NCBI GenBank assembly: GCA_013821455.1
Contig: JACDGS010000022.1
Location: forward strand, 1 to 64,000
Reading direction: 5' to 3'
DNA from: Chthoniobacterales bacterium
GTDB taxonomy: Bacteria; Verrucomicrobiota; Verrucomicrobiia; Chthoniobacterales; UBA10450
Length of the DNA stretch: 64,000 bases
Shown here one piece after another: positions 5,245-49,904 of the stretch (position 1 is its first letter; each line of letters starts with the position of its first letter). Made by a program: the position numbers and the translations under genes. Under the pieces are notes generated by a model. The model was not told the DNA's origin, made no database searches, and saw only the letters and a list, made by a program, of their open reading frames with translations.

Positions 5245-6060
5245 TTACGGCGCTTGGGGAGACGGGCCAGTAGAAGCCGCTGGGCTCGCCGCCGGCTTCG
5301 GCGGAATCGCCGCTCCCGGCTGGCCCGCGGGACGACTCGAATCGTAGGTCGCGGGTTTCACCGGTGCCGCCGGCGGTTCGATCCCGAGCAATTCGACATC
5401 GAAAACCAATGTCGAGTCCGGTCCGATATCCTGACCCGCGCCGCGTTCGCCGTAAGCGAGATCAGATGGAATAACGAGGTGATATTTGGAACCAACCTTC
5501 ATGAGCTGCAGCGCTTCGGTCCAGCCTTTGATCACGCGATTTACCGGGAACGTCGCGGGCTCGTTGCGCTTGTAGGAACTGTCGAACTCTTTCCCGTCGA
5601 TCGTCGTCCCGCGGTAATTCACTTTCACCGTATCGGTCGCCTTCGGCAGGGGGCCGCTGCCTTCCTTTTCCACTTTGTACTGCAAACCGCTGGCGGTCGT
5701 CTTCACGCCGTCTTTGGCTTTGTTCGCCTCGAGAAATTTCTTGCCCGCGGCGCTGTTCTTCTCCCCCGAGGCCTTCTTCACCGCCGCTTGTTTCGCGATC
5801 ATGTCTTTTTGAAAAGCCGCCATCACTTCCTTCACCTGTTCGTCGGTGAGGAGCGGTTTGCCGCCGCTCAATCCATCCTTGATGCCGCGGTTCAGGAGCT
5901 CCTCGTTGACGTCGATGAGCTGTCGCTTCAAGGTGCCTCCAATGTCGAGCCCGATGCTGTAACTCACCTTTTCCTTCTGATCATTTAACTTAGGATCCTG
6001 CGCCGGAGAAAAAGGCGCAAAGGCGAGCGAGAGAGCGATGATAATAAACGATTTCTTCAT
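5245..6060 (-). CDS. FKBP-type peptidyl-prolyl isomerase, exported
   Basis: A periplasmic or outer-membrane folding catalyst of the FkpA/Mip type. The protein of 271 residues starts at ATG 6060 (MKKSFIIIALSLAFAPFSPAQ), a normal signal peptide; the track ORF runs 121 codons further upstream without a plausible reason. The N-terminal helical FKBP_N dimerisation domain (VSYSIGLDIGGTLKRQ) is followed by the FKBP domain from about residue 125 (TASGLQYKVEKEGSG, VNYRGTTIDGKEFDSSY, IPSDLAYGERGAG, LVFDVELLGIE). A proline/alanine tail of about 40 residues ends the protein. Confidence 0.88.
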   Translation of the reverse strand: MKKSFIIIALSLAFAPFSPAQDPKLNDQKEKVSYSIGLDIGGTLKRQLIDVNEELLNRGIKDGLSGGKPLLTDEQVKEVMAAFQKDMIAKQAAVKKASGEKNSAAGKKFLEANKAKDGVKTTASGLQYKVEKEGSGPLPKATDTVKVNYRGTTIDGKEFDSSYKRNEPATFPVNRVIKGWTEALQLMKVGSKYHLVIPSDLAYGERGAGQDIGPDSTLVFDVELLGIEPPAAPVKPATYDSSRPAGQPGAAIPPKPAASPAASTGPSPQAP

Positions 6061-6232
6061 AGTAAGGTGTGGTAAAACTGATCCCGCCACACTCCGAAAT
6101 GGGCTGGCCGGGAGAGATTCATCCACGGAGATTCGTTCGGCGTCAAGGGCGGCCCGGCCGCGCGGCAATCTGGCGTGGGCAAGACTCGGCCGGGTCGGCG
6201 CCGCGTTCGGCGCCCTCGTCTCGCACGCAACG

Positions 6233-6961
6233 GTGGCGGCGATTTCCCTTTCGCATCCGGAGGCGCTCAACGTTGGCCATCGTGTTTGGCAGAACGAATG
6301 TGGCGAAACTGTCTCCGGACTGACTTCGTGGAATTCGGGGGAGGATTTTGCCTCACTCGGGATCGGCCATTTCATTTGGTATCCAGCGGGTCGCGCGGGG
6401 CCGTTTGAAGAAAGCTTTCCCAAGTTCCTCGCCTATGCGCGAGGACGCGGCGCGACGTTGCCTGCGTTTGCGCCTAACGATCACTGTCCCTGGAACTCCC
6501 GTGCGGAATTTGCTTCGGCCGCGGGCAGTGAACAGATGGTACAACTGCGCCGGTTCCTTGCCGGGACGATTGATTTGCAAGCCGACTTTTTGGTTTTGCG
6601 GTTGCAGGAAGCACTTCCAAAAATGCTCGCCGTCACGCCAGCTTCAGAACGCGCGGCGATCGCAAAAAATTTCGAGCGCGTCGCGAGCAGCGCGCACGGT
6701 TGCTACGCGTTGATCGATTACGTGAACTTCAAAGGCGAAGGCGTGCTCGCAACGGAGCGCTATCGTGATCGTGGCTGGGGTTTGTTGCAGGTGCTCGAGG
6801 GCATGCCGCGCGGGGTCGGCGACGGGGCCGCGCCTGATGAATTCGCCGCGTCTGCCGCCGCCGTTTTGCGCGCGCGCGTCGCGAATGCGCCGCCGCCACG
6901 GCATGAAGCGAGGTGGTTGCCGGGATGGCTGCACCGCGTCGCTTCCTATCGCAAATCCTGA
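6233..6961 (+). CDS. Conserved hypothetical protein, lysozyme-like
   Basis: Matches my memory of a conserved bacterial family of about 250-300 residues with the pattern IWxNE-GG--LTSWN-GEDFASLGIGHFIWYPAG. Here VWQNECGETVSGLTSWNSGEDFASLGIGHFIWYP and VDYxNFKGEG are clear. The early glutamate and the layout suggest a lysozyme-like fold, but activity is not shown. The start is uncertain: the track start at 6038 overlaps the divergent FKBP gene, and GTG 6233 is the first in-frame start close to the conserved core. It converges on the next gene, with an octamer at 6965 between their ends. Confidence 0.65.
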   Translation: MAAISLSHPEALNVGHRVWQNECGETVSGLTSWNSGEDFASLGIGHFIWYPAGRAGPFEESFPKFLAYARGRGATLPAFAPNDHCPWNSRAEFASAAGSEQMVQLRRFLAGTIDLQADFLVLRLQEALPKMLAVTPASERAAIAKNFERVASSAHGCYALIDYVNFKGEGVLATERYRDRGWGLLQVLEGMPRGVGDGAAPDEFAASAAAVLRARVANAPPPRHEARWLPGWLHRVASYRKS

Positions 6962-46198: not shown

Positions 46199-46239
46199 GA
46201 CGATTTCTCCTTCTTAAAGTTTTGCGAGTCCTATACTCG

Positions 46240-46911
46240 TTAGGCTGTGGCTGGCTCGGGCGCGGGGGCTGGCGTTGCAGCAGGCGCTTCTTCTTTCTTA
46301 CAGATCCAGCACTTCACTCCGATTTTACCGTAAACGGTATTCGCTTCGGCAAACCCGTAGTCGATCGGGGTGCGTAAAGTATGCAGCGGCACCTTGCCTT
46401 CACGGTACCATTCGGACCGGGAAATTTCCGCTCCGTTCAACCGGCCGGAACTCCGCAGACGAATTCCCTGCGCACCGAAATCCATCGCGATCTGGACCGC
46501 CTTCTTCATGGCGCGGCGGTAAGCAATCCGGCGCTCGATTTGCAGCGCGACGTTTTCCGCGACGAGCTGCGCGTCTAACTCAGGCGTTTTGATTTCCTGA
46601 ATGTCGATCTTGATCTGCTTGCCTTGCGCCATCTTAGAAATCTCTTCGGTCATCTTCTCGATCTCGGCACCTTTGCGACCGATAACGATACCTGGTCGGG
46701 CAGTATGAATAGTGACGCGGATGCTGTTCCAAGCGCGCTCGATGATGATCTTCGCGACGGCGGCAAATTGCAGCTTCTTCTTCACGTAATTGCGAATCTC
46801 AATGTCGCTGTGCAGGAAGCCCGGCATATCCTGCGGCGAAGCATACCAGCGCGAACGCCAGTCGCGGTTCACTCCAAGACGAAAACCAATAGGATTAACT
46901 TTCTGGCCCAT
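46240..46911 (-). CDS. rpsC: 30S ribosomal protein S3
   Basis: The protein has 223 residues with the KH domain ([24 protein letters not shown]) and C-terminal domain ([48 protein letters not shown]). It ends in a short A/P tail ([15 protein letters not shown]). The stop TAA is inside an extended octamer copy (GCC TAA CGAGTATAGG). Confidence 0.97.
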
Positions 46912-46914
46912 GAA

Positions 46915-47424
46915 TTAACTTTCCGCTTTCTGTTCGTTAGGCTCCGGCTGTGCCGATTCGTTAGGCTCGGTCGCCGGCGGTTCGTTAGGCGTTTCTTTCA
47001 TCGCCTTGGCCGGAGTCTTATGAGCGTTCTTTTTCTTGTTAGTACCCCGGTTCTTCTTACCGCCTGATTTCTTCTCGCGCTTTTTAATTTCGATTTCGTC
47101 CGTCAGAACGATGCGGATGTGACTGCTGCGTTTGCGAATCGTACTGCCGCTACCGCGCGCGCGCGTCATCATCCGCTTCATCGTCGGGCCTTCGCCCACG
47201 ATGGCTTCTTTTACGACCAGGCCATCCACGCGCAGGTTGGCGTTGTTCTCCGCATTGGCGATCGCGCTCTTGAGCGTCTTACCAATCATCAGCGCGGCCT
47301 TCTTCGGGCTGAAAGCAACGAGATCAAGCGCCGCCGAAACCGGCAGCCCTTGAATGGCGCGCGTGACTTCGCGCGCTTTGAACGCCGAAATCTTCGCGTA
47401 ACGATATGTCGAGGTAACTTGCAT
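46915..47424 (-). CDS. rplV: 50S ribosomal protein L22 with octamer-bearing C-terminal tail
   Basis: The body (residues 1-~112) is standard: YRYAKISAFKAREVTRAIQGLPVSAALDLVAFSPKKAA, ending SSHIRIVLTDE. A ~55-residue tail follows, first lysine-rich, then ETPNEPPATEPNESAQPEPNEQKAES. The three PNE triplets are coded by three octamers exactly 24 bases apart (46935, 46959, 46983). L22 is about 110-120 residues in most bacteria, against 169 here. It follows the inserted coiled-coil gene, not rpsS directly. Confidence 0.95.
   Translation of the reverse strand: MQVTSTYRYAKISAFKAREVTRAIQGLPVSAALDLVAFSPKKAALMIGKTLKSAIANAENNANLRVDGLVVKEAIVGEGPTMKRMMTRARGSGSTIRKRSSHIRIVLTDEIEIKKREKKSGGKKNRGTNKKKNAHKTPAKAMKETPNEPPATEPNESAQPEPNEQKAES
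46935..46990. repeat. Three octamer copies at exact 24-bp spacing
   Basis: CGTTAGGC starts at 46935, 46959 and 46983, all in the same orientation and frame, inside the 3' end of rplV. The bases between copies differ, so only the octamer and the spacing are shared. Confidence 0.9.
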
Positions 47425-48276
47425 TTAATTCTGACTTACTTCGGGCCGCGCATCCACCTGGAGGCGATCGCCCACTTTTATTGTGTCCTTCTCTGAATCC
47501 AACTCCTGCACGACCGCGCCACTGATCCTATCGCGCACGTCCACCACGCGCAGGGTCGCGATGTTACGCCCGCCTCGCACCACGCGCAACGGCATCCCGA
47601 TTTTTACTCCCTCCTGCGCGCCGAGGTTGCCTACGACGAGCGACCACTCTTCTTTCACACTCAGGACTTTTCCGTCGAGCAGGCTGGGAGCTATCGCATC
47701 GTTAGGCTGACCGGCGGTCTTCTCTTCGACGAGGTGATTTGTCGCGCGCAACTGTGTTTCCACATCCATGCGCGCTTCGGCATCGCCGCTCGGAGTTGTC
47801 TTCACGTAACGCAAAACAACCTCGGTCAATCGCAGCAGTTGCTCGCGATACGCGACGTTCTCTTTCTGCAAAATCTGCAAGTCGCTCACCGCTTTCAAAA
47901 GCCGCTGCGCGAGCTTGGCGCGATTCTTATCGGCCGACTCGATCCCAAGCGCGTCCATGCGTAACTGCAGCTCGGAATATTTGCGGCGAAATAACTCCGC
48001 TTCCGAGTTCGAAACGACAAGGCTATCGGTCATCGTTTTCACCGTCTCGCGATCGAGTGAAAGCTGTTTGCGCATAAGATCGTTCTGCGAAAACAAGGTC
48101 TCGGCGGTCACCTTCGCTTCCGCTACTTCTAAGTTGGATTCTGACAAAGAACTGTTTTCCGCGTGCACGTTTACGAGCGCGACCGCGTTGCTTACTGCTA
48201 CCAGGATCGCCAACGACCAGCGATGTCTTGCCGAATTCGACAAGCATCTCGAGCCGATTGGAAATCCGAAATTCAC
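47425..48276 (-). CDS. Exported coiled-coil protein inserted in the S10 operon
   Basis: The protein of 283 residues is not ribosomal. It has a signal-like N-terminus (HRWSLAILVAVSNAVALVNVHAE), then a long predicted coiled coil to about residue 185 (heptad-like runs such as ELFRRKYSELQLRMDALGI and KAVSDLQILQKENVAYREQLLRL). A small C-terminal beta domain follows (DGKVLSVKEEWSLVVGNLGAQEGVKIGMPLRVVRGGRNIATLRVVDVRD), resembling FlgT-C-like domains that read 'V..V.....VV.N.G...GV..G'. It starts right after the rpsS stop and ends directly before rplV. Its role and its link to the ribosomal operon are unknown. Confidence 0.72.
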   Translation of the reverse strand: MNFGFPIGSRCLSNSARHRWSLAILVAVSNAVALVNVHAENSSLSESNLEVAEAKVTAETLFSQNDLMRKQLSLDRETVKTMTDSLVVSNSEAELFRRKYSELQLRMDALGIESADKNRAKLAQRLLKAVSDLQILQKENVAYREQLLRLTEVVLRYVKTTPSGDAEARMDVETQLRATNHLVEEKTAGQPNDAIAPSLLDGKVLSVKEEWSLVVGNLGAQEGVKIGMPLRVVRGGRNIATLRVVDVRDRISGAVVQELDSEKDTIKVGDRLQVDARPEVSQN

Positions 48277-48277
48277 A

Positions 48278-48556
48278 TCATTTCGTCACCTTTGCGGTGT
48301 GCGAACCGTGTTTCTTAAAGATCCGCGTCGGTGAAAACTCGCCGAGCTTATGCCCAACCATGTTTTCCGTAACGAAGACTGACTGAAAAATTTTGCCGTT
48401 ATGGACGAGGAAAGTATGACCTACGAAATCAGGTGTTACCATCGAACGGCGCGACCAGGTCTTAACCGGTTTTTTAATGCCGGTGTTATTCATCTTATCG
48501 ATCTTCTCGAGAAGATGAGGTTCGACGAACGGTCCTTTTTTTAACGATCTACCCAT
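48278..48556 (-). CDS. rpsS: 30S ribosomal protein S19
   Basis: The protein has 92 residues: [72 protein letters not shown]. It lies after rplB in standard order but is separated from rplV by the inserted gene. Confidence 0.97.
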
Positions 48557-48566
48557 AGGTCAAAAA

Positions 48567-49415
48567 TTACTTCTTCTTCTTGCGCCGCTCGATGATGAAG
48601 CGGTCGCTTGCTTTACGCTTGGTCCGGGTTTTAAAACCTTTGGCTAGCTGTCCCCAGGGACTAACGGGATGATGGCGGCCACCACCACCTTTGGACTTGC
48701 CCTGCCCGCCACCCATCGGATGATCGATCGGATTCATCACCATGCCCCGCACATGCGGACGCTTACCTAGCCAGCGCGTGCGACCGGCTTTGCCACTGGA
48801 AACATTCATGTGATCGACGTTGCCGACCTGGCCAATCGTCGCGTAAGCGCTCTCGTGAATACGACGAATTTCACCAGACGGTAACTTCACCAGCGCATAA
48901 CCACCTTCGCGGTTATTAAGGGTCGCCTGCTGGCCCGCGCTACGAGCAATCTGACCGCCACGTCCGGGCATAATCTCGATACAATGAATGTTCGCGCCTA
49001 ACGGAATCGCGCGCAGAGGAAGAGCGTTGCCAATGTTAGGCGGAGCGTTTTCACCCGCGGTAACCTTGGCGCCTACACCGAGGCCATCCGGAGCCAGGAT
49101 ATAACTCTGTTCGCCGTCGGCATACTTAATGAGAGCTATGCGCGCAGTGCGATTCGGATCGTACTCGATTGCGGTCACTTCCGCCGCGACGTCGTGCTTG
49201 CGCCGTTTGAAATCGACTTTGCGATACTTTTGCTTGTGACCTCCGCCGATGTGCCGGGAAGTAAGACGACCGCGGTTGTTCCGGCCTCCGCTACGCTTCT
49301 TCGGTTCGGTAAGACTCTTAACCGGTTTGGAAGCCGACTTAGTGACCTCCTGAAACATCGGAAGCTGCGTGAAACGCAACGTCGGTGTAAGTGGGCGAAA
49401 TTTTCTCAGTGCCAT
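48567..49415 (-). CDS. rplB: 50S ribosomal protein L2
   Basis: The protein has 282 residues from ATG 49415 ([25 protein letters not shown]); the track ORF extends another 53 codons into the upstream repeat element and should be trimmed. [42 protein letters not shown] and the peptidyl-transferase-region motif [34 protein letters not shown] are clear. Confidence 0.97.
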
Positions 49416-49435
49416 AAACTTATTGTGCGCGCGAG

Positions 49436-49602
49436 CGCAGAGTCTGGGGAGCGCACGCACCCGGCGTGCTGGTGGAGGCGCCCTCGCCTCGACGAACTTG
49501 GCTGCGCGACGTCGCAAGATAGAAAAGCGGCGCGTTCCCCAAAGCCTGTTTCGGCGAGGCGCCGAAACCAGCACGCGAGGCGCGTGCGCTCCCCAGATTG
49601 CT
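49436..49602. repeat. BIME-like inverted repeat pair between rplW and rplB
   Basis: The left unit (from about 49446) begins GGGGAGCGCACGC, reaches GGCGTGCTGG, then a hairpin of GGAGGC/GCCTC type and CGACGAACTTGG. The right unit (to about 49601), in inverse orientation, has the same GGGGAGCGCACGCGCCTCGC start, GTGCTGG, then a hairpin TTTCGGCG/CGCCGAAA. The plan (27-bp head, small hairpin, CGAACTT tail) matches the recG RAYT ends with sequence changes. It fills the 204-bp gap between two operon genes. Confidence 0.7.
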
Positions 49603-49619
49603 TCTTCGCAAATAGTACA

Positions 49620-49904
49620 TCATACCAAATCGATCTTCTCGCCTTTCTTCAGGGTGACGATGGCTTTTTTCCAATGCGCTTTGCGGCCGAAACTTGCCGT
49701 GCGCTCACGCTTCTTTTTCCCGGCATAGTTACAAGTGTTCACGGCGACGACCTTCTTCTTGAAGAGTAATTCAACCGCCGCTTTGATCTGCACCTTGTTC
49801 GCGCGCGGGCTCACCCGGAAGACATACTTGTTAAGCTTCTCACTCAGGAGCGAAGCCTTCTCGGTTAACTGCACCGTCTGGATTAAATCGTACGGTTCGT
49901 TCAT
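49620..49904 (-). CDS. rplW: 50S ribosomal protein L23
   Basis: The protein has 94 residues: LIQTVQLTEKASLLSEKLNKYVFRVSPRANKVQIKAAVELLFKKKVVAVNTCNYAGKKKRERTASFGRKAHWKKAIVTLKKG. It lies near the tunnel exit. It overlaps the rplD stop (ATGA). The repeat pair follows it. Confidence 0.96.
   Translation of the reverse strand: MNEPYDLIQTVQLTEKASLLSEKLNKYVFRVSPRANKVQIKAAVELLFKKKVVAVNTCNYAGKKKRERTASFGRKAHWKKAIVTLKKGEKIDLV

Follow-up and report, generated by a model that had tools for sequence, protein, structure and literature searches.

Reading frame at the rpsS-rplV junction

The stretch of DNA analysed here, referred to as the window, covers 64,000 nucleotides of a contig (JACDGS010000022.1) from the genome of a Chthoniobacterales bacterium (GCA_013821455.1). 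An open reading frame on its minus strand (47425..48276) encodes an exported-type protein of 283 amino acids, here called X, a call based on the reading frame, its sequence and homologues at the same place in other genomes. Upstream of X lies rpsS (uS19; 48278..48556, minus strand) and downstream rplV (uL22; 46915..47424, minus strand), the latter assigned from its reading frame and the loci of relatives. The surrounding S10 string is otherwise normal, with the order rplC-rplD-rplW-rplB-rpsS-[X]-rplV-rpsC-rplP. As the original prediction had it, there is almost no spacing at this junction: the GTG start codon of X at 48276 is placed 1 nt past the rpsS stop codon (TGA, 48278-48280), and its stop codon (TAA, 47425-47427) abuts the rplV ATG at 47424. 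X is a single-copy gene; one distant paralogue that shares its barrel is encoded elsewhere in this genome. None of the families in Pfam and NCBIfam reached its cut-off against the X of the window, and a literature search retrieved nothing on X or on the rpsS-rplV junction in Verrucomicrobiota; X is an undescribed gene.

No promoter-like site was found across positions 46200-49700, an interval that covers rpsS-X-rplV, and X is therefore likely to be co-transcribed with rpsS and rplV as part of the S10 ribosomal operon, in line with the co-expression with ribosomal proteins that had been proposed. Codon usage carried no mark of special adaptation or high expression, the codon adaptation index (CAI) of X being 0.656, compared with 0.707 for the ribosomal genes and 0.708 for the rest.

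The 5' end of X has a peculiar composition in family f1. At these loci (for example L003, L012, L015, L016, L018, L019 and L059), heptanucleotide repeats located just past the rpsS stop codon form the first codons of X and encode the start of its signal peptide in frame. Several units pair as inverted repeats (GTTGAGA/TCTCAAC, GATTTTC, CAGATTT/AATCTGC), and they differ between genomes while occupying the same junction. A period-7 signal was seen at the 5' end of X in 20 of 83 f1-like loci as compared to 0 of 30 loci in other families, and GTTGAGAGTTGAGAG is dispersed in 42 of the 61 genomes of family f1. Positions 48240-48276 of the window hold a decayed remnant of the heptanucleotide repeat. 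Judged from these sequences, the 5' repeats look like a dispersed palindromic repeat that was reused as coding sequence.

Domain architecture and fold of X

The N-terminal export signal of X (residues 1-39; 48160..48276, minus strand), delimited from the hydropathy of homologues and from alignment A1, contains the h-region ILVAVSNAVALV followed by VHA/EN. The first 35 residues are poorly conserved in alignment A1, and a simple hydropathy test identified a hydrophobic N-terminal segment in 45 of 47 X homologues. We consider the export-type signal to be well supported and, given its occurrence in nearly all members, X would be exported via Sec.

In the full-length AlphaFold2 model, long helices (residues 46-109, 119-160 and 166-188) are followed by a confidently modelled C-terminal beta domain (about 200-277). 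The helical part corresponds to a coiled coil (residues about 46-188; 47713..48141, minus strand) that is optional in the family. The C-terminal domain is a six-stranded beta barrel (residues about 199-278; 47443..47682, minus strand), defined from an AlphaFold2 domain model and from alignment A2 of 50 sequences; for the barrel alone, modelled with 50 diverse sequences, the pLDDT was 94 and the pTM 0.84. This 80-aa barrel, the conserved core, and the N-terminal export signal are the constant parts of the X family, and the C-terminal tail is variable and absent in most families (alignments A1 and A2). Each element of the predicted architecture, a signal peptide, a long coiled coil and a C-terminal beta domain, is present in X, but the coiled coil is not conserved. 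It is absent from one clade with proteins of 111-130 aa, and the existence of this short form rules out a functional core in the coiled coil.

To place the barrel, we searched with Foldseek and with sequence profiles. The structures nearest to the domain model were those of FlgT (8z5n at TM 0.71, 3w1e at TM 0.70), together with the barrels at the N-termini of F1/V1 ATPase subunits and EscN (TM 0.65-0.71); the E-values were all above 1e-3 for the domain alone. The full-length model matched Listeria MreC (2j5u) with an E-value of 7e-4. By sequence, the nearest family was FlgT_C (PF16538), matched weakly by 14 of 50 X-family members (best E 1.6e-5), followed by TsaP and MreC (E about 0.04). The earlier suggestion of a FlgT-C-like domain was thus borne out at the level of fold, FlgT being the best match at a TM of 0.70, while the X of the window scored 10.6 bits over its full length and 16.6 bits for the domain against the Pfam gathering cut-off of 27 bits. 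Fold matches of so small a barrel do not fix a function for X.

Distribution and descent

X is not confined to this assembly, since homologues were identified in 51 of 58 related genomes, between rpsS and rplV at the loci inspected, and the locus is embedded in contigs of Mb size elsewhere (genomes G132, G080, G077, G089 and G167). An assembly artefact or a gene unique to one metagenome-assembled genome (MAG), uniqueness having been named at the outset as grounds for refutation, is ruled out by these contigs and by the homologues at the same place. A scan of the contigs of named genomes with the X alignment recovered MAGs of Chthoniobacterales, Spartobacteria and Udaeobacter, with only Chthoniobacterales-type loci in the best 80 of 104 matches; the same contigs gave no match when a single X protein was used as the query. 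The order rpsS-X-rplV was found in all 77 Chthoniobacterales loci that show the three genes; 73 of these passed a strict between-genes test and the other 4 failed solely from the alignment overrunning the end of rpsS. For close pairs, dN/dS values estimated pairwise with NG86 were mostly 0.05-0.14, with one pair at 0.29, and by this measure X is under purifying selection. Together with the number of homologues and their shared position, these values place X far beyond what chance would give.

To examine the gene order in other Verrucomicrobiota, we mapped rpsS and rplV in a phylum-wide sample of 145 genomes, which was also queried with a profile built from the X barrel. Among the 141 genomes in which rplV could be placed, 78, representing 29 families, have X as the gene immediately upstream of rplV. 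Three arrangements were observed. In the first, the operon is intact apart from a full-length X that separates rpsS from rplV. In the second, a short X of 111-130 aa, with the signal and the barrel but without the coiled coil, occupies the same place (L200, L202-L209). In the third, the S10 operon is split: rpsS is the last gene of its string, with unrelated genes beyond it, while X heads the rplV half. The operon was intact in 46 of the 78 genomes and split between rpsS and X in 29 genomes from 9 families. X has often remained next to rplV where the ribosomal operon broke apart, and what is conserved is its linkage with rplV, not with rpsS and rplV as a pair.

In the sample as a whole, rpsS and rplV were far apart or on different contigs in 47 of 145 genomes, which include a large clade; examples of split loci are L181-L187, L190 and L192-L197 on the rplV side and L151-L165 on the rpsS side. 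Naturally empty sites are seen within the order of the window itself, in family f5 (L243 and L244 in G049 and G040), where the gap between rpsS and rplV is about 10-30 nt. At another junction (L241 in G039, family f4), about 550 nt separate the two genes and contain no recognisable X domain; this segment may represent a decayed or replaced gene.

X is neither always beside rplV nor always present. In genus g81 of family f24, orthologues that resemble the linked form over their full length are located at a separate locus away from rplV. The retention of X after its detachment suggests that the protein itself is under selection, and its persistence outside the operon points to a function of the protein and speaks against a role exerted purely in cis. 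X has been cleanly lost in family f5 and also in f8, f16, f31, f32, f43 and f44, and hence it is not universally needed.

We also compared the divergence of X with that of its neighbours. The distances for the X barrel were strongly correlated with those for rplV and rpsC (Mantel r 0.903 within the order and 0.918 within the phylum), and none of 2000 permutations reached these values. In a maximum likelihood tree of rplV and rpsC, full-length X is present on either side of the midpoint root. Split operons fall mainly into one clade (support 99/94), and the short X forms one clade (100/99); row L010 of this tree is labelled NONE, but the corresponding genome, G026, bears a full-length X. These comparisons indicate that X is inherited vertically, and a recent horizontal insertion is ruled out by the congruence with the rplV-rpsC tree and distances. 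In the simplest reading, X would have been positioned before rplV already in the ancestor of the phylum; thereafter the operon would have undergone a single main break, the coiled coil would have been lost once and the gene several times. The ancestral placement is based on the breadth of X, the tree being rooted at its midpoint only.

Possible roles of X and comparison with known systems

Few gene strings in bacteria are as conserved as the ribosomal operons, whose additional genes usually function in translation, secretion (secY) or transcription. It is unusual that a gene for an exported protein is kept directly before rplV over 29 families of one phylum, and in many genomes even where the operon broke exactly there. 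This position suggests an envelope component made in step with ribosomes. We put at about even the chances that X is an ancestral exported envelope scaffold of Verrucomicrobiota, co-transcribed with the S10 ribosomal proteins. A scaffold is favoured because those relatives of the barrel whose roles are known, in FlgT, MreC and the F1 crown, are modules for structure or assembly. In most lineages the helices would pair as a coiled coil and so allow dimerisation, and the conserved job would be performed by the barrel, of the FlgT-C or F1-ATPase-crown type, which by analogy with the barrels of FlgT and MreC most likely self-assembles or docks on a periplasmic partner. Being translated from one message with uS19 and uL22, X would be supplied in proportion to ribosome production. 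Both the scaffold role and the growth coupling are inferences from these observations.

A broader version of this proposal, in which the verrucomicrobial ancestor already made an envelope scaffold inside the S10 operon and most of its descendants thereby scale envelope construction with ribosome synthesis, we regard as unlikely, if worth stating. We know of no such hard-wired growth-rate coupling between translation and the envelope in other bacteria. X is a concrete and testable candidate for tying envelope growth to ribosome synthesis, and the Verrucomicrobiota include cultured and genetically tractable members. For Verrucomicrobium spinosum, a saturated transposon library with an essentiality table is described (PMC12283558).

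The position of X in the ribosomal operon could, against the scaffold proposal, be historical. An ordinary exported protein may have landed before rplV in the ancestor of the phylum and remained there, with steady high expression and no coupling to ribosomes or growth. We hold this reading to be tentative, yet it is a serious rival because the position of X follows descent, as seen in the Mantel correlations, and because the gene can be lost cleanly. Its departure from the operon in genus g81, where it was nevertheless kept, and its ordinary codon usage are also compatible with a mere passenger. On the other hand, the link to rplV has outlasted many deep splits in the phylum and, in 9 families, the breakage of the S10 operon itself, a persistence that might exceed the expectation for neutral linkage, although selection against breaking an essential operon could equally keep X beside rplV.

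We consider it improbable that X is an elongasome protein of the MreC type, either a second MreC or a divergent one, with a scaffolding role in cell-wall synthesis. MreC shares with X the plan of a membrane-directed N-terminus, a coiled coil and a beta barrel, as well as a short motif (V.N.G...GV..GMP), and the Foldseek match to Listeria MreC is accompanied by a PDB profile match of the X family to the MreC-type structure 9dvb (E 0.039). However, a canonical MreC separate from X was found in 23 of 24 relatives, including one genome without X and the genome of the window (G000:C109:31401-31847), and the probability in a profile-profile comparison with hhalign was only 7%; X as the MreC of this genome is ruled out by these two results. 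The Pfam core of MreC (PF04085) was not matched by X, and 2 of 50 domain members matched it at E 0.036 or weaker. MreC is encoded at its own locus and has two barrel domains according to PMC8804602, whereas X is located in the S10 operon and has a single barrel in the model.

Very improbable is a monitor of the kind represented by SecM, which regulates secA in cis: an exported-type protein does lie immediately upstream of rplV, even in split operons, with its stop codon abutting the rplV start in the window, but the spacing between X and rplV varies from 0 to more than 100 nt, the conserved part of X is a folded domain, no SecM-type arrest sequence is conserved near the variable or absent C-terminal tail (alignments A1 and A2), and the orthologues away from rplV in genus g81 break the constant adjacency that such regulation in cis would involve.

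Returning to X as a candidate envelope scaffold, other proteins resemble it in part. The C-terminal part of 3jc8, assigned to TsaP, a LysM protein in the secretin ring of type IV pili, matches X weakly and without significance (E 0.037), and no LysM domain was found in X. The crown domains at the N-termini of F1/V1-ATPase subunits and EscN have a six-stranded fold like that of the modelled X barrel, but X lacks an ATPase domain and is predicted to be exported. Paralogues within the phylum have a hydrophobic N-terminus, a coiled coil and a barrel as in X; in contrast to X, they are unlinked to rplV and form a separate subfamily, which is in tandem in family f15 (L223:5101-5952 and 6000-6815) and single in the genome of the window (L221:8829-9719). 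Closest in modelled fold is FlgT, the H/T-ring protein of the Vibrio flagellum, with which X has the C-terminal barrel in common. FlgT is exported to the periplasm, and X likewise carries a predicted export signal. Where FlgT has the FlgT-N and FlgT-M domains, X has a coiled coil or nothing, and FlgT belongs to a flagellar context whereas X is encoded in the S10 ribosomal operon.
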